Assembly (NCBI RefSeq): GCF_014323725.1
Contig: NZ_JABVED010000022.1
Span: forward strand, 1-64,000
DNA: 64,000 nucleotides
Source: Actinokineospora xionganensis
GTDB taxonomy: Bacteria; Actinomycetota; Actinomycetes; Mycobacteriales; Pseudonocardiaceae
Reading direction: 5' to 3'
Below are positions 49,693 through 63,668 of this stretch, in pieces; the stretch's first letter is position 1; each line of letters opens with the position of its first letter. Below the pieces are notes generated by a model. The model was given only the letters and a program-made list of their open reading frames with translations. It did no database searches and was not told the origin of the DNA. The position numbers were made by a program, and so were the translations under genes.

Positions 49693-51011
49693 GCGGTCAC
49701 CTCGTGGACCTTGGCGACCCGCAGCTCGGCGATGCGGTGGCGGTCCATCCGCATCACCGTGATGAGCCAGCCGTCATAGCGCAGCTCGTCGTTCACCGAG
49801 GGAATCCTTCCAAGGCGGTTGAGGACGAACCCCGCCACCGTTTCGTAGTCGCCCGCGGGCATCCGGAACCCGGTCGCCTCGGCCAGTTCGTCGTCGCGCA
49901 GCAGCCCGGACACCATCCAGCTGTCCTTGCCCAGCGGGCGGACCGGGTTGACCTCGCCGCGGTCGTGCTCGTCGCGCACGTCGCCGACGATCTCCTCGAT
50001 CAGGTCCTCCAGGGTGACCAGGCCCGCCGTGCCGCCGTACTCGTCGACGACCACCGCGACCTGCAGCCCGGAGCCGCGCAGTCGGTCGAGCAGGACGTCG
50101 CCGTCGAGCGTCTCCGGGACCGTGGGCACCGGACGCGCCAGGGACGCCGCCTTCGTCGTCGCACGCATCGCGTGAGGGACGCCGAAGACCTGCTTGACGT
50201 GCACCACGCCGCGGATCTCGTCGAGATCGCCGCCGTGCACCGGGAACCGTGAGAACCCGGTCGCGCGCGCGAGCGCGATCAAGTCGAGCACCGTCGCGTC
50301 CGCGCGCAGCGCCTGCACCTGCACACGCGGGGTCATCAGCTCGTCGGCCGTGCGGTCGCCGAAGCGCAGCGACCGGCTCAACAGCGCGGCGGTGCCGGTG
50401 TCGAGCATCCCCTTGGCCTCACTGGAGCGGACCAGGCCGCCCAGCTCGTCGGGGGAGCGGGCCGACCGCAGTTCTTCCTGGGGCTCGACGCCGAGGCGGC
50501 GTACCACCCAGTTCGCCGCGCCGTTGAGGGCGGTGATCAGCCACCGCAGCGCCGCGGAGAACACGGCCTGCGGACCGGCGACGGCGCGCGCGGTCGCCAG
50601 CGGGCGGGCGATGGCGAGGTTCTTCGGGACCAGCTCGCCGAACACCATCGACAGCGAGGTCGCCACGACCAGCGCGATCGTGATCGCCACCGCGTCGGCC
50701 GCGCTCTTGGGCAGGCCGATCAGCGCTAGCAGCGGCTCGATCAGCTGCGCGAGGGCGGGCTCGGCGATGTAGCCGGTGATCAGCGTGGTGATCGTGATGC
50801 CCAGCTGCGCGCCGGAGAGCTGGAACGACAGGGTCCGGTGGGCCTTCTGGATGGCCAGCGCCCGCCGGTCGCCGACTTGCTCGGCGTGGTGGTCGACCTG
50901 GCTGCGTTCCAGGGTCGTGAGGGAGAACTCGGCGGCGACGAAGAGCGCCGTTCCGAGAGTGAGCGCGAAAACGGCCAGCAGGCCGAGGACGCTGATCAGG
51001 GGACCGGTCAC
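49689..51011 (-). CDS. CNNM/CorC-family membrane protein (long partner, second pair)
   Basis: A 440-residue protein: DUF21 with FVAAEFSLTTLERS and GELVPKNLAIARPLAT, a CBS pair with VDEYGGTAGLVTLEDLIEEI, and a C-terminal CorC/HlyC domain with AGFVLNRLGRIPSVNDEL. These proteins are linked to Mg2+ and Co2+ balance and to membrane stress in other bacteria. GTG start at 51011 without a strong ribosome-binding site. It heads the operon with the short partner and the glycosylase-type gene, and mirrors the pair at 2340-4747. Confidence 0.85.
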   Translation of the reverse strand: MTGPLISVLGLLAVFALTLGTALFVAAEFSLTTLERSQVDHHAEQVGDRRALAIQKAHRTLSFQLSGAQLGITITTLITGYIAEPALAQLIEPLLALIGLPKSAADAVAITIALVVATSLSMVFGELVPKNLAIARPLATARAVAGPQAVFSAALRWLITALNGAANWVVRRLGVEPQEELRSARSPDELGGLVRSSEAKGMLDTGTAALLSRSLRFGDRTADELMTPRVQVQALRADATVLDLIALARATGFSRFPVHGGDLDEIRGVVHVKQVFGVPHAMRATTKAASLARPVPTVPETLDGDVLLDRLRGSGLQVAVVVDEYGGTAGLVTLEDLIEEIVGDVRDEHDRGEVNPVRPLGKDSWMVSGLLRDDELAEATGFRMPAGDYETVAGFVLNRLGRIPSVNDELRYDGWLITVMRMDRHRIAELRVAKVHEVTA

Positions 51012-54478: not shown

Positions 54479-56242
54479 GTGTGCCGACATCTGGGTTACC
54501 TCGGCCCCGCCGTGTCCTTGTCCACCTTGCTGTTCGACCCGCCGCAAGGGTTGCTGAGGCAGACGTTCGCGCCGAAGGACATGCGGCAGGGCGGCACGGT
54601 CAACGTCGACGGGTTCGGCGTCGCCTGGCGCACCGACGGGCAGACGGTCCGCTACCGCCGCGCGGTCCCGATGTGGATCGACCACGGCTTCGCCGCCGTC
54701 GCCGCGAGCACCCGCAGCGACGTGGTGCTCGGCGCCGTCCGGTCGGCCACGATCGGCATGCCGATCTGCGACGACGCCTGCGCGCCCTTCACCGAGGGGC
54801 CGTGGATGTTCAGCCACAACGGGCGGATCGGCGGATGGCCGGGGAGTGTCGCCGGGCTCGCCGCCGAACTGCCCACAGTGGACCTGATGACGCTCGACGC
54901 ACCCACCGACAGCGCACTGATCTGGGCCATGGTGCGGCATCGGCTGCGGGCGGGCCTCGACCCGGCCGACGCGCTGGCCGAGGTGGCCCGCGCGATCGGC
55001 GCGGTGGCGCCGGACTCGCGGCTCAACTTCCTGCTCACCGACGGCCGGACGCTGGTCGCCACCACCTGGTGGCACTCGCTTTCCGTGCTGAGGAACGAAG
55101 ACAGCGTCGTCCTGGCCTCCGAGCCGTGGGACGACGATCCACAGTGGACGACCTTGGGTGACCGCCTGCTGGTCACCGCCACGCTTGACCCGGCCCCGGA
55201 TGTGCGCGTCACCGAATTGGGGCCGATCGCCGAATCACCGGAGGGGAACGCAGTAGTGACCACGACCGACGCCAGGAACTCCGCTGTCGAAGTACACCTG
55301 CCCGAAGACCACGCCGCTCGTTCGCTCGCCGCCGATGTCCGCATGGGACTGACCGCAACGCCCAAATCTCTGCCGCCCAAGTGGTTCTACGACACCCGGG
55401 GCAGCGAGCTGTTCGAACAGATCACCCGGCTCCCGGAGTACTACCCGACTCGCGCGGAACGTGAGATCCTCGCGGCCCGCGCGGCCGAGATCGCTTCGGT
55501 GACCGGCGCGCACACGTTGGTGGAACTGGGTTCGGGCTCCTCGGAGAAGACCCGGCTGCTGCTCGACGCCCTGCGCGACGGCGGCACCCTGTCGCAGATC
55601 GTCGTCCTGGATGTCTCGGAGTCGGCGCTACGCGAGGCTTCGGCGGCGCTGGGGGAGGAGTACCCGGACACGACCGTCAACGGCGTCGTCGGCGACTTCA
55701 CCGAACACCTGGGTCTGCTCCCCGGCGAGCCCGCGCGGCTGGTCGTGTTCCTCGGCGGCACCATCGGCAACCTGCTTCCCGCTGAGCGCAGGACATTCCT
55801 GGCGTCGATCCGCGACACCCTCAAGCCGGGGGAGTGGCTGCTGCTGGGCACCGACCTGGTCAAGGACGAGGCCACCGTCGTCGCCGCGTATGACGACGCG
55901 GCGGGTGTCACGGCGGAGTTCAACAAGAACGTCCTGCACGTCCTCAACCGCGAGTTGGACGCCGACTTCGACGTCGACGCGTTCGACCATGTGGCGCTGT
56001 GGGACGCGAAGAACGAGTGGATCGAGATGCGCCTGCGCTCGACCAAGGCCCAGCGCGCCCGCATCGCGGCGTTGGACATGGAGGTCGACTTCGCCGAGGG
56101 CGAGGAACTCCGCACCGAGATCTCCGCCAAGTTCCGCCAGTCGGGCGTGGCGGCGGAACTCGCGGCCGCGGGCTTCGCCCTGAGCCAGTGGTGGACCGAC
56201 GAACAGGGTCGCTTCGCGCTCTCCTTGGCCAAGGCGGACTAG
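54479..56242 (+). CDS. egtC-egtD: EgtC amidohydrolase and EgtD methyltransferase in a single reading frame
   Basis: One 587-residue frame covers two ergothioneine enzymes that are normally separate. Residues 1-259 are EgtC, an Ntn-type amidohydrolase with the nucleophile Cys2 (MCRHLGYLG) that removes glutamate. Residues 260-587 are EgtD, the histidine trimethylating enzyme that makes hercynine: [24 protein letters not shown], the SAM-binding [11 protein letters not shown] and LGGTIGN. A GTG at 55256 with its own ribosome-binding site would start EgtD alone. Dropping one G from GGGG at 55243-55246 would end egtC at TAG overlapping that GTG, so the fusion may be real or a one-base error. No egtE is seen nearby. 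Confidence 0.9.
55241..55258 (+). promoter_or_regulatory. Internal ribosome-binding site and GTG for separate EgtD
   Basis: GAGGGGAA at 55241-55248 is spaced correctly for the in-frame GTG at 55256-55258. The out-of-frame TAG at 55254-55256 overlaps that GTG exactly as in a normal coupled egtC/egtD junction. Confidence 0.6.
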
Positions 56243-56730
56243 CCGCCGAACAGTTCCTTCGTGGCTTCCTGGCCCGCGTTGGTGGTGCGGGTCAGGAAGT
56301 CGGCGAGGATCTGGAGTTCGGCTTCGCTGTAGCCGGAGACGATGTCGTCCATGCTTGAGTTCATGCCCGAGTAGAGCGCGAACACGTCGGCGGCGCGGTC
56401 TTTCCGCGCCTGGATGAGGACCGCCCGGCGGTCGCTGGGGTCGCGGTCCCGGGAGATCCAGCCGCCGCGTTCGAGGCGGTCGAGGACGCCGGTCATGGTG
56501 GCGGGGTGCATTCCCGCCCGCTTCGCCAGGGCGCTGGGGGTCAGGGGGCCGTGGCGGGTGATCAGGTCGAGACACTCGAGGTCGGCGTCGCGCAGGTCCA
56601 GCTTGCCGCTCACCTGGTGGTTCAGCAGTGACAGCTGCACGCTCAGCTCCCGCAGCGACTCCTTGATGTCGTTGGTGAGCCGTCGCTTGCGCCTGCGGTC
56701 GTCCGCGTCGGAAGAAGATACGGAACTCAT
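56239..56730 (-). CDS. MarR-family regulator
   Basis: A 163-residue MarR protein: [20 protein letters not shown] is the helix-turn-helix and [20 protein letters not shown] the wing, with helical ends for the dimer. The ATG at 56730 is preceded by GAGGAG. Its stop and the EgtD stop share the palindrome CTAG, so the convergent genes overlap by four bases. The divergent gene is an NmrA-like protein, and a dyad covers both promoters, which points to joint control. Confidence 0.85.
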
Positions 56731-56755
56731 ATGATACGCTCCTCGTAGTATATGA
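56727..56755. promoter_or_regulatory. MarR-type operator between marR and the NmrA-like gene
   Basis: TCATATGATACG and CGTAGTATATGA are inverted repeats matching at 10 of 12 positions with a five-base spacer. The site covers the MarR ribosome-binding site and start, as expected for autorepression, and faces the divergent promoter. Confidence 0.6.
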
Positions 56756-56797
56756 CCGACGTAAGACAAAGTACTCGGCATGCTGAGGGAGCACACC

Positions 56798-57457
56798 ATG
56801 AAGCTCACGATCTTCGCCGCGACCGGCGGCATCGGCCGCCACCTCGTCGACCAGGCCTTGGCCGAACGCCACTACGTCACCGCCGTCGTCCGCGATCCCG
56901 GCAAGGTGACCGCCGACGTCCGCGCGATCAAAGCCGACCTGCTGAATCCCGACGCCGACACCTTGCAGACGGCCGTCGCGGGCGCCGACGCGGTGCTGTC
57001 CGGACTCGGCCCCCGCAAGCTCAAGGACGCGGGCGTGACGGCCCCGGGCACCCTCGCCATCGTCCAGGCGATGCGCGCCACCGGAGTCCGCAGGCTCGTC
57101 GTCGTCAGTGCCGCCCCGGTGTCGACCATGCCCTCGCCCGGCAGGCCGAACCCACCACGCGACCCCGGCGAGGGCTTCTTCACCCGCGCGGTCCTCACGC
57201 CGCTGGTGAAAGCCGCGCTACGCAAGCACTATGTCGACCTCGCCCGTATGGAGGATGTCCTGCGGGACAGCGACCTCGACTGGACGTCCCTGCGCCCGCC
57301 GCGTCTGACCGACAAGCCGCTGACCGGGAACTACCGCACCGCCATCGAGGCGAGCGCGGGCGGCCACCTGGTTTCCCGCGCGGATGTGGCCCACGGGATG
57401 CTGGCGGCTTTGGACCGCCCGGAGACCATCCGCAAGGCGGTCGGGATCGCGAACTAG
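56798..57457 (+). CDS. NmrA/SDR-like NAD(P)-binding oxidoreductase
   Basis: A 219-residue Rossmann protein with the nucleotide loop FAATGGIGRHLVD (residues 6-18), VVRDPGKV as strand 2, and AGADAVLSGLGP around strand 4. Atypical SDRs of this NmrA type act as redox sensors or reduce quinones. A TGAGGGAG ribosome-binding site precedes the ATG at 56798. It is divergent from, and probably repressed by, the MarR gene; such pairs often respond to electrophiles. Confidence 0.82.
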   Translation: MKLTIFAATGGIGRHLVDQALAERHYVTAVVRDPGKVTADVRAIKADLLNPDADTLQTAVAGADAVLSGLGPRKLKDAGVTAPGTLAIVQAMRATGVRRLVVVSAAPVSTMPSPGRPNPPRDPGEGFFTRAVLTPLVKAALRKHYVDLARMEDVLRDSDLDWTSLRPPRLTDKPLTGNYRTAIEASAGGHLVSRADVAHGMLAALDRPETIRKAVGIAN

Positions 57458-57629
57458 GAGTCGTGGTCGAGGAGGGTGGCCAGATCCTCGAGGATCCCGG
57501 CGAATACCGCGGCCGGATCGTCACCACGAAGACCTTTCCCGCATGTTCGGGGTGCGCGAGCAGGTGCGACTCACGCCAGAACTGGACGGTGAGGATCAGG
57601 GCGGCGCCTTCGCGGAACACGTAGGCGAG
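57454..57629 (-). pseudogene. Frameshifted gene remnant
   Basis: On the minus strand, LAYVFREGAALILTVQFWRE continues to about HPEHAGK in one frame; the protein-like sequence then carries on one register over as GLRGDDPAAVFAGILEDLAT and ends at a stop at 57454. The shift falls near 57535-57540, at GGGAAAGG. Upstream the first frame is closed by a stop at 57630-57632. It looks like the 3' part of a decayed gene of unknown family, overlapping the NmrA-like stop by four bases. Confidence 0.35.
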
Positions 57630-58006
57630 TCAGTTGGTCGGTCGTTGGGCCATGGCCAGTGCGGCCCCAGTCAGCGGTGTCCCATACAGCGTGCCGAAAC
57701 TGCTTCACACACGCGTCGTTGTTGTCACACGTCAAACGCTGATCGGAGGCCACAGTCCACTCGACGCAGCGCGGGGCCGACCGTCAGTCGAGCTAACGAG
57801 ATCGGTCGAGAGGATCTTGTCGAACGTCTATACAAGAACTTCCTCGGCCAATATGAGATGCCACTCTGGATGCTCGGCTATTGAAGACCGAGCACGCCAG
57901 TTGCTCCATCCGGGCGTACTTGCGCTGAACCCTCAGTGTTGTCGTACGCCGCTGCTACAACAACCAGTGCCCACCCGCACGCTGTCCGTAGCCACCTGGA
58001 GACCGC
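57458..58006. other. Intergenic stretch at the left edge of the accessory island
   Basis: Apart from the remnant at 57454-57629 I see no convincing gene. The base composition is lower in GC than the flanks. One plus-strand fragment ending at 57884 reads LVERLYKNFLGQYEMPLWML, which is protein-like but has no start or ribosome-binding site. It may be the scar of an old insertion. Confidence 0.4.
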
Positions 58007-58636
58007 ATGGCCATGACCAAAACTGGCCTCCTCCTCCCGCTCCTGGCCGTCGTCGGACTGGTCGCCTACTTCGGGCTGGACACCGTCACGGACACCGTGG
58101 GCGACCTGTTCGGCGGCAACGACCCGGTCATCATCGAGGACCACGGCTACCAGTTGCTGATTGGCGACGACGGCGAAGCGAAGGTCCGGCAGTGCACGGC
58201 CCAAGTCGCCCTGACCATCCGGCAGTGCGGCGACGTCAAGGTGGTGGTCATCGACGCGACCAAGATGCCCTTCATCTCCCGCAACATCCAGCTGGCTTGG
58301 GCGGACGGCATCCCTTCGATCCTGACTCGCAACTCGGCCAAGCAGGCCGTGAACCGCGCCGCGGCTTGCGGCAAGTTTGTCCCGAAGTACGGCGGCAGTT
58401 GTGACGAGTACGCCTTCGCCACCACCGACGAGGGCGGCTCCAGTGCCCGCACCGAGGAAGTCCCCCTGCGCGAACAGCGCTGCCAGGGCGGTGCAGTGAC
58501 CGGCGGCTATGCCAAGGCCGCTGTCGGTCAGGGCGATCAGTTCTTGGTGGTCATCGCGAGCCCCGGCAAGGTCGCCACCAAGTCGTTCACTGGAGCCGAC
58601 GTGGCAGAGGAACCGGTGGAACAATGCGCAGTGTGA
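58007..58636 (+). CDS. Secreted or membrane-tethered NucA/NucB-type deoxyribonuclease
   Basis: A 209-residue protein with an N-terminal hydrophobic helix (TGLLLPLLAVVGLVAYFGL) that is a signal or anchor. The C-terminal half matches the NucA/NucB DNase domain: SRNIQLAWADGIPSIL, then CDEYAFATTDEGG, EVPLREQRCQGG and GDQFLVV, in the same order as secreted Bacillus and Streptomyces NucB. Six cysteines suit an extracytoplasmic, disulfide-bonded protein. GGAG lies five bases before the ATG. The next gene overlaps it by 13 bases, so the two are coupled. Confidence 0.75.
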   Translation: MAMTKTGLLLPLLAVVGLVAYFGLDTVTDTVGDLFGGNDPVIIEDHGYQLLIGDDGEAKVRQCTAQVALTIRQCGDVKVVVIDATKMPFISRNIQLAWADGIPSILTRNSAKQAVNRAAACGKFVPKYGGSCDEYAFATTDEGGSSARTEEVPLREQRCQGGAVTGGYAKAAVGQGDQFLVVIASPGKVATKSFTGADVAEEPVEQCAV

Positions 58637-59175
58637 ACTCCTACGCTTGGGCAGACACGGCCTACGACCTGTCGTGGACGCTGGCCGTCATCCAAGGCCG
58701 CACCGAGGATGAGGTTCGCGCGGGCTACGGCGCAGATCAAGAAGTCAGCAAGCTGACGTTCGAACAAGCCAACGCCGAACGAACCGAACACCTGGACGAC
58801 TACGGCCTTGTCCAGTTCAAGGCTGTCGACGACTACATCGTGGTCATCGAGCCGAACGGGTGGGTGGGCAACGCTCCCGAGGTAGCTCGCAAGTTGTCCA
58901 GCCCCACCGGCTTGTTCTTCTCGGTGTACTGGAGCCCGAGCGGCCACCAGATTCTTCAGGCCACGGGCGGCCAGATCACCGGTCGCTTCGATCCGACGTT
59001 CATCGGGCTGCCTGCCGGGGCGAACGACATGCTTCCTGGCTGGGTCGGCGACGACGAGTTCGACCTTGAACACCTACGCTCCGCCAGCCTCGCAGCAGTT
59101 GAGCGTCAAACCGGCCTCGCCTTCGATCCGGCCTGGCTCACCGATCCACTTCCGACGTACCGGGTATCGGCGTAG
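58624..59175 (+). CDS. DUF6461-like protein overlapping the nuclease gene
   Basis: A 183-residue soluble protein resembling DUF6461 proteins: the N-terminal YAWADTAYDLSWTLAVIQGR, a central GLVQFKAVDDYIVVIEPNGW strand block, SSPTGLFFSVYWSP, and a C-terminal helical ALxxxxGLAFDPAWL region. It has no signal peptide, so it is cytoplasmic. It starts inside the last codons of the nuclease gene, an arrangement typical of toxin-immunity pairs, but no immunity function has been shown for the family as far as I know. Its 3' end overlaps the converging gene by 38 bases. Confidence 0.6.
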   Translation: MRSVNSYAWADTAYDLSWTLAVIQGRTEDEVRAGYGADQEVSKLTFEQANAERTEHLDDYGLVQFKAVDDYIVVIEPNGWVGNAPEVARKLSSPTGLFFSVYWSPSGHQILQATGGQITGRFDPTFIGLPAGANDMLPGWVGDDEFDLEHLRSASLAAVERQTGLAFDPAWLTDPLPTYRVSA

Positions 59176-59656
59176 GTCGCCACCGTCGCAACCCGTCCAG
59201 CACTCGCCCGAGTAGCTCGTCGCCGGGGTCGATGTATACCGGTCGTGACGGTGCGGGGAATGCCTGCGCTTCCCGCTCCGGCAGCTCGGCCACCGAGTCC
59301 GCGGTGAGCTTCTGTTCCAAAATGTCCATCAGCTCGTCTGTCATCGGGGGCAGTACGCCCGTTGGCCAGTCGTGTCCTTGCAGGGAAGCGAATCCATGCG
59401 GATCGGTGTCGTCCTCCGTCCAGTTCAACCGCAGTGCTCGCCCGCTCAACGCCACCCGCTCTAACAGCTCCGCCACGGCAATCGAGTGGCCGTGCTGTCC
59501 GTCGTGCTTGCCCATGTAATTACGCCCGTCCACGTAGCGCCTGGCTACCGCGATGGCCGCGTTCCACTTGCGCCGCTGGGAAAGCGCATCGGATGGCAGC
59601 CACCAGACCGCCCAAGCGAGGGCGCCAACGATCGGCCCACAGGCCAGCGCCCACAT
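59138..59656 (-). CDS. Island operon gene 5: single-helix membrane protein
   Basis: A 172-residue protein whose first 25 residues are a membrane helix (CGPIVGALAWAVWWLP). A soluble, mostly charged domain follows, with YMGKHDGQHGHSIAVAELLE and EREAQAFPAPSRPVYI. No family is recognised. The ATG at 59656 lies one base past the stop of the 34-residue gene, so translation is continuous through the operon. The frame is open to 59731. Its 3' end overlaps the DUF6461-like gene. Confidence 0.6.
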   Translation of the reverse strand: MWALACGPIVGALAWAVWWLPSDALSQRRKWNAAIAVARRYVDGRNYMGKHDGQHGHSIAVAELLERVALSGRALRLNWTEDDTDPHGFASLQGHDWPTGVLPPMTDELMDILEQKLTADSVAELPEREAQAFPAPSRPVYIDPGDELLGRVLDGLRRWRPTPIPGTSEVDR

Positions 59657-59657
59657 G

Positions 59658-59762
59658 TCACAGCCGCCGTGCCCGTGTGAGCCAGGGCAGGACGAAACGG
59701 CCAGCCAACCGTCCGACCAGCACCGTGCCACCGAGCGTGGCCACCGCCAGGCCGACGCTCAC
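59658..59762 (-). CDS. Island operon gene 4: 34-residue membrane microprotein
   Basis: A 34-residue protein, starting V-S-V-G-L-A-V-A and ending LPWLTRARRL. It has one hydrophobic helix and a positively charged C-terminal tail. Its GTG start at 59762 overlaps the stop of the upstream gene as GTGA, and one base separates its stop from the next ATG. Such exact spacing on both sides argues for a real coding sequence despite its size. Confidence 0.6.
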   Translation of the reverse strand: MSVGLAVATLGGTVLVGRLAGRFVLPWLTRARRL

Positions 59763-60139
59763 GTCGGCCGCGCAAGCTGACCTCGGCAAAGCTTCTGCGC
59801 CATGTCCGGCAGGCCGCCGTCTTGTACCCAGATCGCTGCCTTGGTTCGCCGGATTTGGGCAACCAACGCCGTTACCACATCCGCCCGGTATGACAGGTGG
59901 ACGCTGTTGAGCACCACTGCCGCTGACGCCTGCGGCATACCCAGCGCTTGCACCAGACCCCGGAAACCCACCCGGTCTTCTACGTCGAGCAATGACCCCA
60001 CGTCAGAAAACGTCGCGCCCAAATGCCAGCCCTCGCTGACGCACCACAGCTCTAGGCGTTCCTTGGCCTCGGCAAACCATTCCGGCTGTTCCCGGACGTT
60101 GTGCAAGTAGCCGTAGACCAACGGGGCTTGCCGTTTCAT
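59759..60139 (-). CDS. Island operon gene 3: resolvase-fold-like protein without catalytic residues
   Basis: A 126-residue protein patterned like the N-terminal domain of serine recombinases: VYGYLHNVREQ as the first strand, an ERLELWCVSEGWHLGATFSD helix-strand, RVGFRGLVQAL, VVLNSVHLSY and the final VDGG-like turn WVQDGG. The catalytic Ser position near VYGYLHN is occupied by Asn, and no DNA-binding domain follows. It is likely a recombinase-derived, non-catalytic partner. Start is the ATG at 60139, which overlaps the upstream stop. Confidence 0.6.
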   Translation of the reverse strand: MKRQAPLVYGYLHNVREQPEWFAEAKERLELWCVSEGWHLGATFSDVGSLLDVEDRVGFRGLVQALGMPQASAAVVLNSVHLSYRADVVTALVAQIRRTKAAIWVQDGGLPDMAQKLCRGQLARPT

Positions 60140-60384
60140 GCCTGCTCCGTTCCGGCCTCGATCAACAGGGGAACATCGGTCGCATCTATCCGCCCCGTAG
60201 CGTTGGCCTGCAACGCGATCGCGATCGCGAACAGGCGAGCGGCGAGCTGCTGCTCGACTTCGGGGAGCGCTGCGCTGTACTCCGTCCGTCCGCCGTCGAT
60301 GTCGAGTACCCGCCCGATGTAGACGGCGATGGCTTGGTTGACGCTGGACACTTCCGCCAGGAACGCCAATTCGTCGTGATTCAC
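60136..60384 (-). CDS. Island operon gene 2: small helical protein
   Basis: An 82-residue protein with a long amphipathic helical core (ELAFLAEVSSVNQAIAVYIG, then VEQQLAARLFAIAIALQANA). It has no signal peptide or known motif. Both ends show four-base overlaps (ATGA) with neighbours. Its role is unknown; coiled-coil-like packing would suit a multimeric or adaptor role. Confidence 0.6.
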   Translation of the reverse strand: MNHDELAFLAEVSSVNQAIAVYIGRVLDIDGGRTEYSAALPEVEQQLAARLFAIAIALQANATGRIDATDVPLLIEAGTEQA

Positions 60385-60605
60385 TTATGCCCCTTGGGTT
60401 CTGTGGGCAGCTCGGGGTGCTGCTTGGCGGCATCTCGCACCTTGCGCAAGCCGCGTTCCGCGGCCCGGACCGGTGGGATATCCCAGGGCGACGACACGAT
60501 GACGGCCGCCCGGCTCAGGGCGCTGAGTTCGGGAATGGTGACCTTGACGGTCAGGGCGACCAGCCGATCTGGGGGCTTGCTGTTCGCCTTGTCCTTGCTT
60601 GCCAC
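60381..60605 (-). CDS. Island operon gene 1: small basic protein
   Basis: A 74-residue protein with a Lys-rich start (ASKDKANSKPPDRLVALTVK), a middle strand-helix unit (TIPELSALSRAAVIVSSPWD) and a Lys/Pro-rich end. GTG start at 60605. It is the first gene of the five-gene minus-strand operon; the divergent XRE gene starts 218 bases away. No family recognised. Confidence 0.55.
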   Translation of the reverse strand: MASKDKANSKPPDRLVALTVKVTIPELSALSRAAVIVSSPWDIPPVRAAERGLRKVRDAAKQHPELPTEPKGHK

Positions 60606-60754
60606 CTGTCAGGCCTTCCGTGGTCGCTGCTGGAAGGCACCCAGCGCCGAGAGTTGCCCGCACTGCCACGGGGGAGGCCGTCGGGGGAAGCACGTGCGAT
60701 TACTCCCGACGCCGGGTGCCAGAGAGGACGCTAGGAGCGACAGTCGGTGACGAG

Positions 60755-60762
60755 TTGTACAA
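60755..60762. promoter_or_regulatory. TTGTACAA palindrome in the divergent island promoter
   Basis: A perfect 8-base palindrome in the 218-base region between the five-gene operon and the XRE gene. Approximately symmetric CAGTC and GACTG sequences lie 9-10 bases outward. It is a candidate site for the XRE protein, on position only. Confidence 0.35.
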
Positions 60763-60823
60763 AATGTGTGACTGGCCACCCGCTACGCTGATGACGGTTG
60801 CCGCAGGTCGGACGGGGTGAGGC

Positions 60824-62038
60824 ATGGACGGCACGTCGAGGCAGATCGGTACGAGAGTTCGCTATTGGCGGGAGCGACGGAACCTGACGCGTCAGCGGTT
60901 TGCCGACATGGTGGGTCGGTCGACCTCGTGGTTGGACAAGATCGAGTCGGGCGAACGCGAGCTGGTCCGGCTGCCGATGATCGAGCGGGTGGCCGAGGCC
61001 CTGGGCGTCGACCCGGCTGTGCTGACCGACGCTGCTCAGGCCGAGCGCGCCGAACAGTGCGTCGATGCCGGCGAAGTCCAGGCCATCCGTACCGCACTTG
61101 CTGCCTATCCGGGCTTGGCCGCGTGGCCTGCCGAGAACGTCAGTACCGCTAGCATTCGCAGGCAGGCCGAGTACTTGGACCTTGCCTGGTTGTCGTCCCG
61201 CTTCACCGTGTTGGCTCGCCACCTCCCCGGGCTGATGACCGAGGCGCAAGCCGCGGTGCTCAGCGTTCCGCGCGACGAGCGGGTTGGGGCCTACCGCGTC
61301 CTGGTGACGACCTACCGTCTGGCGTCATCCATGCTGCTGAAGTTCGAGGCCAACGACGTTGCCTGGCTGGCGGCCGACCGCGCCATGTACACGGCGATGA
61401 GCGTCGACGACACCTGGTCGCTGGCACGGGCTACCCGCAGCGTGGCGCGGGCCATGACCAGCACTCGGCAGGAAGCCCAGGCGATTTCCACGCTGTTGGA
61501 CATGGCCGACCGGATGCGACGCGAAACCGAAACGCACGCTCCTGAGCTGCTGTCCCTGTACGGGATGCTCTACCTCGCGGCCTCGATTACGGCGGCCGGT
61601 CAGGACGACCCGGTGACAGCTCGGGAGATGCACGAAGAGGCGATGGTGGCGGCGCTGAAGTTCGAGCCGCACTACAACACTCACCACACCTTCTTCGGCA
61701 CCACCAACACCCTGATCCACCGCGTCTCGGCGCTCGTACGCCTACACCAAGGCGGGCGAGCGTTGGAGTTCGCGGAGACCATTGACCCGTCCGCGGTTGC
61801 GGCGCTATCCGCCGAGCGGCAGTCGAACTTCCTGCTCGATCTCACCGAGGCGCACACCAGCGTCGGCAACCACCGGCAAGCCGTCCGCTTGCTGGGCCAG
61901 GCGGAACAGGTCGCGCCCGAGGAGGTGCGCTGCCGACCGCTGGCGCACGGCCTGCTGCGGTCGCTGCTGCACAACACCACCGGCGAGCCCGCTAAGTTGG
62001 TCAAGCAAATGGCTGACCGAGCGGGAGTCGTGGCATGA
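60824..62038 (+). CDS. XRE-family regulator with long helical sensor domain
   Basis: A 404-residue protein. Residues 5 to about 62 are an XRE helix-turn-helix (IGTRVRYWRERRNLTRQRFA, then RSTSWLDKIESGERE). The remaining 340 residues are all-helical and TPR-like, a layout seen in actinobacterial peptide- or metabolite-responsive regulators. GGGGTGAGG precedes the ATG at 60824. It is coupled (ATGA) to the flavoprotein gene, suggesting the flavoprotein's substrate or product may signal to it. It is divergent from the five-gene operon. Confidence 0.85.
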   Translation: MDGTSRQIGTRVRYWRERRNLTRQRFADMVGRSTSWLDKIESGERELVRLPMIERVAEALGVDPAVLTDAAQAERAEQCVDAGEVQAIRTALAAYPGLAAWPAENVSTASIRRQAEYLDLAWLSSRFTVLARHLPGLMTEAQAAVLSVPRDERVGAYRVLVTTYRLASSMLLKFEANDVAWLAADRAMYTAMSVDDTWSLARATRSVARAMTSTRQEAQAISTLLDMADRMRRETETHAPELLSLYGMLYLAASITAAGQDDPVTAREMHEEAMVAALKFEPHYNTHHTFFGTTNTLIHRVSALVRLHQGGRALEFAETIDPSAVAALSAERQSNFLLDLTEAHTSVGNHRQAVRLLGQAEQVAPEEVRCRPLAHGLLRSLLHNTTGEPAKLVKQMADRAGVVA

Positions 62039-62610
62039 CTAAACCGGTGCTGTACCTGATGATTTGCGGCGCCGGTCCGGCTGATCACATCGACCGCATG
62101 ATCAAGCTCGCCCACGCCGATGGCTGGGACGTCTGGTGTCTGGCCACGCCATCTGCTGTTGAACACTTCCTCGATCTGGATGCGCTCGAAGCGCTCACCG
62201 GGCACGTGGTGCGCACCGGCCACCAACGAGCGGGCCAACCGCCGCTGCCCAAGGCCAGGGCGGTGATCGTGGCCCCGGCGACCTACAACACGATCAACAA
62301 GTGGGCTGCTGGCATCGCCGACACCTACGTCCTGACCCAGCTCGCCGAGCTCACCGGCCTCGGGGTGCCAATCGTGGTCCTGCCATTCGTCAACACCGCA
62401 CTAGCGGCCAACCGCGTCTTCCAGCGCAGCGTCGCCGAGTTGCGCGAGTCCGGGGTGACCGTGCTGTTTGGCGAAGGCGGCTTTGTGCCGCACCCTCCGC
62501 GGACTGGTGGTCAGGTGATGGATAGCTACCCGTGGGAAGCCGCGCTCAGAGCTGCGACGCGGTCTGATTTCGGAAACATTGGAGACGAAAACATGCCGGT
62601 GAAGCCATGA
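62035..62610 (+). CDS. HFCD-family flavoprotein (EpiD/Dfp-like)
   Basis: A 191-residue homologue of the homo-oligomeric flavin-containing Cys decarboxylases. Strand 1 is VLYLMICGAGPADHI, the FMN-binding PASANT-type motif reads APATYNTINKWAAGIAD, and PFVNTALAANRVFQRS occupies the position of the PxMNxxMW substrate clamp. Family members decarboxylate cysteine residues in peptides or phosphopantothenoylcysteine. This one pairs with an XRE gene, not with coaBC or a lanthipeptide cluster, so its substrate is open. Start by ATGA overlap. Confidence 0.82.
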   Translation: MTKPVLYLMICGAGPADHIDRMIKLAHADGWDVWCLATPSAVEHFLDLDALEALTGHVVRTGHQRAGQPPLPKARAVIVAPATYNTINKWAAGIADTYVLTQLAELTGLGVPIVVLPFVNTALAANRVFQRSVAELRESGVTVLFGEGGFVPHPPRTGGQVMDSYPWEAALRAATRSDFGNIGDENMPVKP

Positions 62611-62714
62611 CACGTTCCATGGGTGACGCCGAGTGGGAGCGCTATAGGAACTTCCGCGAGACTACCTTTTCTCGCGTTCGGCTACTAGTTCGGTCGCGAT
62701 TGAACTGGAGGTAG
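62607..62714 (+). CDS. Possible small protein coupled to the flavoprotein
   Basis: A 35-residue ORF that starts in an ATGA overlap with the flavoprotein stop: MTRSMGDAEWERYRNF and onward, basic and helical. The 4-base overlap is the same type used throughout this operon, which is the main support. It could also be a chance ORF, or a short substrate peptide for the flavoprotein (it contains no Cys, which argues against a decarboxylation substrate). Confidence 0.35.
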   Translation: MTRSMGDAEWERYRNFRETTFSRVRLLVRSRLNWR

Positions 62715-62954
62715 GTAGCCAGAGATCTTCTTCCGCCCAGCCGTACTGACCTTAATTGTCAGTAGAGGCGACCATGAGAAACTCGGTCAAATGCGTCCAA
62801 AAGTGCCAACGCCCGCAACGTGTAGGATCTAAGTCAGCCTACGGGCATCTCTTGGGCGAGTAGTCCCTCGCACTGCATTCCCTAGCCAGCATCTCCACAT
62901 CCACACTGACGTAGTGCCGGATGCTGTCCACCCGCCTACCTCCACGGCGACGAA

Positions 62955-63668
62955 CTAGAAGACGCTCTTCCCGATCAGCAGCAGTGCGCTCAGTGCTGCG
63001 ACCACCAGGACGCCGACCCGCAGCCGCGGCCCCTCGACGTGCTTGCGCAGCGGGTTGGAGATCAGGGCGCCGCAGGCCAGGAACGGAATCAGTAAGGCCG
63101 CGGCCACCAGGTGGCGCTGTTCCACATGACCGGCCACCGCCAGCATCGCCAGCGACGAGATCGAGGCGACCAGGAAAAAGGCGCTCAGCGTCGAGCGAAT
63201 CGTGGGACCGGACTGGTTCTGGTACACCAGCGCGATCGGCGGACCGCCGATCGACGCCATGGTGCCGAAAGCACCCGACGCGGTGCCTGCCACCAGCAGG
63301 GTGGGGACAGTCGGCCGCGGCTTCCACGTCATCACCGACAGGCCCACGCACACCAGAACACTCACCCCGATCAGCGTGGTGAAGCCCGCCACCGGCAGCG
63401 TCGCCAGGGCGATCAGGCCGAGCCCGTTGCCGGGCAACCGCCCCACCATCGCCCAGCCGACGTTCTTCCACTCGACCGAGCCGTGCTCGCGGAAGATCAG
63501 CATCGCCGAGAGCGCGGTCCCGGCGAACAGCACCGGCACCGGCACGAGCATCGGGTCGATCAGCGCCAGGATCGGACCGGCGATCAGGTTGAGGCCGAAG
63601 CCGATGGTGCCCTGCACCGCCGCGCCGACTAACAGGACCAGGCCCGCGATCAGCAGTCCGAGTGTCAA
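62955..63668 (-). CDS. TauE/SafE (TSUP) family sulfite/anion permease
   Basis: A 237-residue permease with about eight helices. The paired family motifs are visible: VGAAVQGTIGFGLNLIAGP near the start and ASGAFGTMASIGGPPIALVY at the second repeat. Relatives move sulfite, sulfonates or other small anions across the inner membrane. The only workable start is TTG at 63668, preceded by GGGGA. It is downstream of acnA on the same strand, separated by a terminator. Confidence 0.82.
   Translation of the reverse strand: MTLGLLIAGLVLLVGAAVQGTIGFGLNLIAGPILALIDPMLVPVPVLFAGTALSAMLIFREHGSVEWKNVGWAMVGRLPGNGLGLIALATLPVAGFTTLIGVSVLVCVGLSVMTWKPRPTVPTLLVAGTASGAFGTMASIGGPPIALVYQNQSGPTIRSTLSAFFLVASISSLAMLAVAGHVEQRHLVAAALLIPFLACGALISNPLRKHVEGPRLRVGVLVVAALSALLLIGKSVF

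Follow-up and report, generated by a model that had tools for sequence, protein, structure and literature searches.

In Streptomyces, both development and antibiotic production are governed by loci of the BldB and WhiJ type. BldB-type proteins are regarded as modulators of WhiJ, and how the partner acts on the XRE protein at such loci is still unsettled. According to excerpts of one study (PMC10294661), WhiJ9 activates iosA and binds direct repeats in the region that separates iosA from the divergent whiJ9; transcription of whiJ9 doubles upon loss of WhiJ9. In the same study, BldB forms hetero-oligomers with BldB9, which may connect BldB to the iosA/whiJ9/bldB9 locus. Here we describe a locus in a 64,000-nucleotide stretch of the Actinokineospora xionganensis genome (contig NZ_JABVED010000022.1; the window), in which genes for an XRE regulator and a flavoprotein (FLV) stand opposite a divergent operon of five small genes (g1 to g5), one of them encoding a resolvase-fold protein that lacks the catalytic Ser. 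By analogy, we regard the Streptomyces whiJ-bldB locus facing abaA or iosA as the closest known kind, and the locus is probably a two-module regulatory system that works like whiJ/bldB loci. A literature search of titles and abstract openings returned no description of an XRE-flavoprotein or dead-resolvase locus of this kind.

A conserved operator-like site between the two operons

The region upstream of the XRE gene was aligned for the window and 23 loci with an XRE of at least 50% identity, revealing a single strongly conserved block, GTCACNNNTTGTACAAAATGTGTGAC, with shorter conserved boxes on either side in DNA that is otherwise poorly alignable. A palindrome between the operons, reported by a first-pass annotation made from the sequence alone, is real and forms part of this conserved 26-bp site (Table 1). 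The core of the site was present within four mismatches before XRE in 22 of the 23 loci, the exception being L205, and in 0 of the 43 remaining flavoprotein loci; a shuffled control of the same size (768,643 bases, with base composition only preserved) gave three core matches. The core occurs once in the 6.81-Mb assembly at up to two mismatches. This uniqueness points to the g1-g5 and XRE-FLV operons as the likely targets of the XRE protein, which would thus likely control just these two operons.

Both sides of the core carry -10-like boxes. Among 20 non-redundant sequences (the window and 19 loci, with L177, L178 and L184 dropped), 15 have TANNNT on the minus strand 27 bases ahead of the core, and 3 others have it displaced by one base; on the plus strand, TANNNT stands 29 bases after the core start in 11, with a one-base shift in a further 3. 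The divergent box is better conserved than the XRE-side box, although the divergent genes differ among loci. The start sites predicted from the boxes, about 7 bases beyond 60728 (minus) and 60789 (plus), each lie about 38 bases away from the middle of the conserved site, a spacing that fits either activation or repression. The proposal of the first-pass annotation that XRE controls the divergent five-gene operon, with FLV as its partner, is supported by this conserved, genome-unique site between the two predicted promoters, and an exact candidate operator, found once in the genome, is now available for the regulator.

The XRE regulator and the flavoprotein

The XRE protein matches Pfam HTH_31 with an E value of 5e-14, and its entire length is covered by a match to PHROG 5823, a family of phage regulators. 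A structural model built from 29 sequences, with a predicted local distance difference test score (pLDDT) of 92, shows a helix-turn-helix (HTH) domain followed by a TPR-like superhelix. Its fold matches are TPR proteins and, with the HTH included, ComR and PlcR, at template modelling (TM) scores of 0.16-0.38. The latter are RRNPP receptors, with which the XRE protein shares the HTH and the TPR-like superhelix at moderate similarity, and g4 is short and hydrophobic; these features would suit RRNPP-like signalling, in which the 34-aa g4 is a pro-peptide and its mature form binds the XRE TPR domain. We consider this most improbable. The superposition on ComR and PlcR is poor at the TM scores given above, and g4 lies deep inside the facing operon and has no family match, its conservation being seen only as a similar hydrophobic frame in the paralog within the same genome (no search with g4 alone was made). 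No secreted pro-peptide is recognised here, and this reading leaves the flavoprotein partner unexplained.

FLV is a PF02441 flavoprotein by Pfam, and its profile matches EpiD and PPC decarboxylases. Its flavin-site motif, APATYNTINKWAAGIAD, aligns to the PASANT region. In the alignments, the one residue that distinguishes the EpiD entries 1g63 and 1g5q (His versus Asn) falls in a column that aligns with Gln68 of FLV; the His of EpiD at this column is what we take to be its catalytic active-site residue, His67. Among 59 family members (the window FLV and 58 of 66 fetched flavoprotein loci), this column holds Gln in 20, Glu in 20, Asp in 10, His in 1 and other residues in 8. FLV shares the fold and the flavin-site motif of the HFCD flavoproteins (EpiD, CoaC, HAL3) and differs from them in the catalytic His column, where 50 of the 59 family members have Gln, Glu or Asp. 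The earlier assignment of FLV to the HFCD flavoproteins holds for the fold and not for the catalytic His, which is replaced by Gln68. This replacement weakens both FLV as an EpiD-like peptide decarboxylase and the suggestion of a peptide-modification module, and makes a flavin-sensing partner likelier than a peptide-modifying enzyme.

XRE-FLV pairs in other genomes

At 51 of 66 flavoprotein loci from named genomes an XRE gene was found, either by an upstream HTH profile or by similarity to the window XRE. A g3 operon faces XRE-FLV in only two of the 66, both from Lentzea, and most g3 operons face other XRE genes. The seven genes are thus not one inherited unit; an obligate unit is rejected, and the single seven-gene system envisaged by the first-pass annotation is not supported. 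A Cys-pair peptide (described below) faces the pair in the same two Lentzea loci and in a third, and a g2 relative is present in two of the 66 loci. In the Saccharothrix loci L180 and L191, XRE-FLV faces a gene pair whose relatives stand behind g3 elsewhere; the first gene of this pair in L180 is Prim-Pol-like, and the second is also carried by L185 and L190. Since the facing genes vary and some are also found behind g3, XRE-FLV is a cassette of its own, with facing genes drawn partly from the same pool.

A locus of A. enzanensis (L165) carries an XRE-FLV-HD cassette, with the HD gene confirmed by Pfam. It faces a second XRE gene, after which comes a gene judged NUDIX-like by eye, and a flavoprotein-like fragment lies between them. 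These parts resemble the xre-nud-mdp cluster of actinomycete integrative and conjugative elements (AICEs).

The same loci bear on a toxin-antitoxin (TA) or defence-like module, with XRE as antitoxin and a small protein or FLV as toxin. XRE and small-protein pairs were formerly proposed as type II TA systems, as stated in excerpts of PMC10364602, and a NucA/NucB-type nuclease gene and a DUF6461 gene adjoin the locus. We nevertheless judge such a module improbable: FLV relatives also stand at loci without a detected XRE (15 of 66), and overexpression of 14 DUF397 partners in S. coelicolor produced no clear toxicity in the excerpts of the same paper. PADLOC returned generic HTH matches only, to XRE alone. 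With no known-system protein matched beyond these, an anti-phage defence system is rejected, and the defence module suggested earlier finds no support.

g3 operons in other genomes

A second copy of the operon is present in the same genome (L039), with g1 84% and g3 77% identical to those of the window, a hydrophobic, g4-like frame after g3, and genes of the g2 and g5 families. It faces an XRE only 14% identical to the window XRE in a multiple alignment, together with a RibD_C reductase. Searches with the single g3 sequence found relatives in 35 of 249 family genomes, and gave no match in the named genome collection. A profile at E 1e-8, which also picks up some true recombinases, found relatives in 73 of 390 family genomes and in 25 of 121 genomes of a Streptomyces-like genus. 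A selection of the matches together with three plasmid records gave 117 fetched loci, from which 8 were dropped as their best match looked by eye like a true recombinase; more distant resolvase-like loci were otherwise retained among the 109 counted and scored as misses.

A divergent XRE-type HTH gene lies within 2 kb of g3 in 75 of the 109 loci (26 of 28 in the Streptomyces group and 49 of 81 others) versus 7 of 82 control open reading frames (ORFs) from the same loci; less strict settings gave 8 of 130 and 12 of 166 for the controls. An independent Pfam check of 83 g3-adjacent regulators found HTH_3 in 67 and HTH_31 in 64, and the WhiJ-type domain DUF5753 in 9. Automatically picked ORFs downstream of the regulator are partly spurious, and only Pfam-checked genes are named here: DUF218 (YdcF), RibD_C, Y_phosphatase3, APH, 2'-5' RNA ligase, 5-FTHF cyclo-ligase, NUDIX, HD, DUF397, SDR and AKR. 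DUF397 follows the regulator in three loci that cluster together, one of them Pfam-checked; in the SDR example, L044, the regulator was recognised through similarity to other regulators and not by the HTH profile. A gene of the AbaA-type HATPase lies within 3 kb of g3 on the same strand in 19 of the 109 loci, all in the Streptomyces group. An alignment of 25 loci of that group (L084-L090, L143-L158, L160 and L162), in 24 of which YdcF follows XRE, revealed somewhat variable direct repeats (ACTTCCGTTNCACTTCCGT / ACTTCCGT) in the stretch between XRE and g3, so that this second XRE class has repeats of its own.

By profile, relatives of the Cys-pair peptide, g1, g2 and g5 were detected near g3 in 26, 7, 18 and 20 of the 109 loci, respectively, and 63 loci had none of the four. 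These gene neighbourhoods show regulator-enzyme cassettes paired variously with a shared pool of effector genes, HATPase included, across genomes. The roughly one hundred examined loci place this dead-resolvase family in a regulatory context.

Two peptide families were seen around these operons. Members of the Cys-pair family have 54-92 aa with a PxxLY motif, Cys-x-x-Cys and a WPC motif, and lie upstream of g3 in 26 of 26 cases (for example L052, L054, L062, L064, L065, L068, L069, L072, L073 and L075). The second is a conserved peptide of 31-39 aa (in Lentzea ...VERTPIVQDRTEVQLSDGAQGDWGDTRDP), found at L069:8139-8258, L072:8031-8150, L068:8696-8791 and L176:3841-3960. It lies downstream of g3 operons or, in L176, downstream of the Cys-pair peptide. 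Next to it come a JmjC_2/cupin-type gene, identified by Pfam in L068 and L069, and then a convergent gene that is weakly APH-like in L068. The group is possibly a ribosomal-peptide cluster.

Proteins of the five-gene operon

The g3 protein matches Pfam Resolvase at E=0.019, under the gathering score, and NCBIfam IS607 weakly at E=0.005, while a 22-row g3 profile matches TP901-1 integrase and TnpX at 5-6e-6. Serine-recombinase catalytic domains are among the best fold matches of its model, which was built from a 3-row alignment and has a modest pLDDT of 68. The position of the catalytic Ser, assigned through a motif alignment, is occupied by Val; Ser is present in this column in 11 of the best matches from the 117 g3 loci, some of which are true recombinases. 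The protein shares the catalytic-domain fold of serine recombinases (IS607 TnpA, TP901-1 Int), and differs in lacking both the catalytic Ser and the added DNA-binding domain, for which its length of 126 aa leaves no room. An active recombinase is rejected for g3, and the earlier description of a resolvase-like fold without the catalytic Ser is borne out.

For g1, g2, g4 and g5, scans of Pfam, NCBIfam, PHROGs and PADLOC gave no family above threshold, in keeping, together with the weak matches of g3, with the earlier view that the five genes have no clear known function. The 34-residue g4 is hydrophobic and probably a membrane peptide, as the first-pass annotation had proposed.

Table 1. Features of the XRE-FLV/g1-g5 locus, in window coordinates.
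Feature	Position	Strand	Remarks
Operator-like site, imperfect inverted repeat GTGAC-gag-TTGTACAAAATGT-GTGAC	60747..60772		Conserved before XRE
Core of operator-like site, TTGTACAAAATGTGTGAC	60755-60772		Between -10-like boxes of both operons
-10-like box TAGCGT, five-gene operon	60728..60733	minus	TANNNT kept at same offset
-10-like box TACGCT, XRE-FLV operon	60784..60789	plus	TANNNT kept at same offset
XRE-FLV operon	60824-62610	plus	Faces g1-g5
XRE regulator	60824..62038	plus	404 aa, N-terminal HTH_31 and TPR-like superhelix
FLV	62035..62610	plus	191 aa flavoprotein, CoaC/EpiD fold, Gln68 instead of catalytic His
Five-gene operon g1-g5	60605-59138	minus	Divergent from XRE-FLV
g1	60381..60605	minus	74 aa, first operon gene; no Pfam/NCBIfam family, one PHROG at E 0.44
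g2	60136..60384	minus	82 aa, no known family
g3	59759..60139	minus	126 aa, serine-recombinase catalytic-domain fold without catalytic Ser
g4	59658..59762	minus	34 aa hydrophobic peptide
g5	59138..59656	minus	172 aa, hydrophobic N-terminal segment
Insert without counterpart in closest relative G201	56245..62950		G201 has ~560 bp there

Locus layout and the surrounding insert

An ORF check confirmed the seven ORFs of the first-pass annotation, with their positions, junctions and divergent arrangement: neighbouring genes share 4 bases at the g1/g2, g2/g3, g3/g4 and XRE/FLV junctions, and a 1-base gap separates g4 from g5. The GC content at third codon positions (GC3) is 0.74-0.81 for g1-g5, 0.84 for XRE and 0.77 for FLV, and ranges over 0.74-0.86 across the island genes at 58007-62610, compared with 0.915 +/- 0.028 for the 32 other window genes of more than 200 aa. 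By this measure, the stretch of g1-g5, XRE and FLV appears to be compositionally foreign DNA.

In the closest relative (G201), whose flanks are 91-93% identical to the window, bases 56244 and 62951 are only about 560 bp apart, so that the missing stretch also includes a MarR gene and a NAD(P)H-binding gene (56239-57457), with a host-like GC3 of 0.91-0.92. The accessory island proposed earlier is therefore borne out by its foreign GC3 and its absence from this relative; the missing stretch is larger than was proposed, taking in these two host-like genes. The insert is bordered by a histidine-specific methyltransferase gene, which we take to be of the ergothioneine type, and by a TauE permease gene, followed in G201 by an aconitase gene (all by Pfam). 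In two other relatives (G190 and G078), the same gap is occupied by different genes. A tRNA target or an RNA element at the insert is rejected: an Rfam scan of 56000-63500 gave no RNA element match, and the sole tRNA of the window, tRNA-Pro at 49848, is far from the insert.

Beside the operon, on the plus strand at 58007-59175, lies a gene for a NucA/NucB-type DNase with a hydrophobic N-terminus, overlapping a DUF6461 gene. Genomes of the same genus carry these two genes together at many positions, and in L050 and L058 they stand beside a g3 operon; they are perhaps a nuclease and its immunity protein.

An alternative reading is a remnant of an AICE, plasmid or phage, with XRE as immunity repressor, FLV as accessory enzyme and g1-g5 as genes left over from transfer or exclusion. 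A gene of the Prim-Pol type, whose proteins function in AICE replication, faces XRE-FLV in L180, with relatives behind g3 in other loci. Besides the full-length match to PHROG 5823, XRE has relatives among the regulators of 33 Streptomyces phage records, at less than 60% identity. In L243, a viral contig from IMG/VR, XRE-FLV follows a GH25 lysozyme-type gene and has as its neighbour a tyrosine recombinase gene that Pfam confirms, and the cassette there may be a phage lysogeny switch. Plasmid records with FLV relatives number 92, of which 87 are from Streptomyces, and 9 Streptomyces plasmid records contain a g3 relative. Excerpts of PMC3218068 describe xre-nud-mdp clusters on AICEs and a conjugal immunity that pSAM2 owes to its Nudix protein Pif; the larger XRE protein with NUDIX or HD partners of these systems is comparable to the A. 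enzanensis XRE-FLV-HD cassette.

We hold such a remnant to be rather unlikely. Eleven insert genes were scanned, nine proteins by Pfam, NCBIfam and PHROGs and the two further genes (56239-57457) by Pfam, and no integrase, relaxase, FtsK/TraB or replication gene was found among them; AICE or plasmid cargo is rejected on this basis. The earlier report that integrase and transposase genes are absent agrees with this, aside from the weak resolvase matches of g3. A two-integrase query found no relative near any of the 66 FLV loci, although other integrase types could escape it, and on the 117 g3-type loci gave 4 matches, all in loci dropped as true recombinases. The window g3 has no match in the plasmid set, a g3 relative none in the phage set, and FLV has only two weak phage matches. 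The window thus differs from AICE xre-nud-mdp and from pSAM2 Pif, as described in the excerpts of PMC3218068, in having no integration, replication or transfer gene found, in its flavoprotein partner and in what conservation suggests is a regulatory site. The conjugation-derived module suggested by the first-pass annotation has parallels in similar XRE cassettes on AICEs, plasmids and phages, and lacks a transfer or integration gene among those scanned; a mobile-element past of the locus is possible.

Proposed mechanism

The gene anatomy, the foreign composition, the empty site in the relative and the conserved, genome-unique site between two -10-like boxes are read from the DNA itself. In the two-module regulatory system that we propose on this basis, module 1 would be XRE-FLV with its own bidirectional promoter and operator, and module 2 the effector operon g1-g5, including the catalytically dead resolvase-fold protein g3. 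The XRE protein would bind the site, regulate itself and turn the g1-g5 operon on or off. FLV, probably made together with XRE through coupled translation, would modulate it in the manner supposed for BldB and WhiJ, a bound flavin or some other small molecule perhaps being involved, with the TPR-like domain of XRE as the likely docking site for FLV or the ligand. The effectors would act in the cytoplasm and at the membrane (g4 and g5), with consequences for development, for specialised metabolism or for how a mobile element behaves.

The different combinations of these parts in related bacteria suggest that the locus belongs to a large, poorly known family of gene-control modules. More tentatively, this may be a large, unnamed actinobacterial family of mix-and-match switches, each an XRE-TPR protein with one of about ten enzyme folds (flavoprotein, RibD, NUDIX, HD, YdcF, 5-FTHF cyclo-ligase and others), its own bidirectional operator and shared small effector operons, often with a dead resolvase. 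The enzyme would be a sensor that replaces BldB, each cassette reporting a different metabolite to the same kind of output. With enzymes of defined chemistry in the partner slot and two XRE classes with their own sites, the metabolite sensed by each cassette is open to test.

Comparison with whiJ-bldB loci

Several observations weigh against a system of the whiJ/bldB kind. By Pfam, the window XRE has no DUF5753, and its partner is a PF02441 flavoprotein and not DUF397, so that the comparison with WhiJ and BldB rests on layout. No -35 hexamer stood out around the operator-like site. No XRE was detected at 15 of the 66 flavoprotein loci, the g3 operon is rarely the one that XRE-FLV faces (two of 66), a divergent XRE is missing from the 2 kb around g3 at 34 of the 109 g3 loci, and at 25 none of any kind lies within 3 kb; the HTH profile behind these g3 counts was home-made and iterated on the same loci. 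The loci also differ in their effectors, here a five-gene operon with a dead resolvase and no HATPase match among g1-g5 by Pfam, and in their sites, an inverted repeat in the window and direct repeats in the whiJ-bldB loci.

What the window appears to have in common with whiJ-bldB loci is an XRE regulator, an adjacent partner gene, a divergent effector and a conserved site in the shared intergenic region. In both cases there are many paralogous cassettes, and DUF5753/DUF397 versions also occur around the g3 family (DUF5753 in 9 of 83 regulators). By analogy, a BldB-like role for FLV is plausible in view of the gene arrangement, the site between the two operons and the occurrence, around the g3 family, of versions with DUF5753, DUF397 and HATPase.

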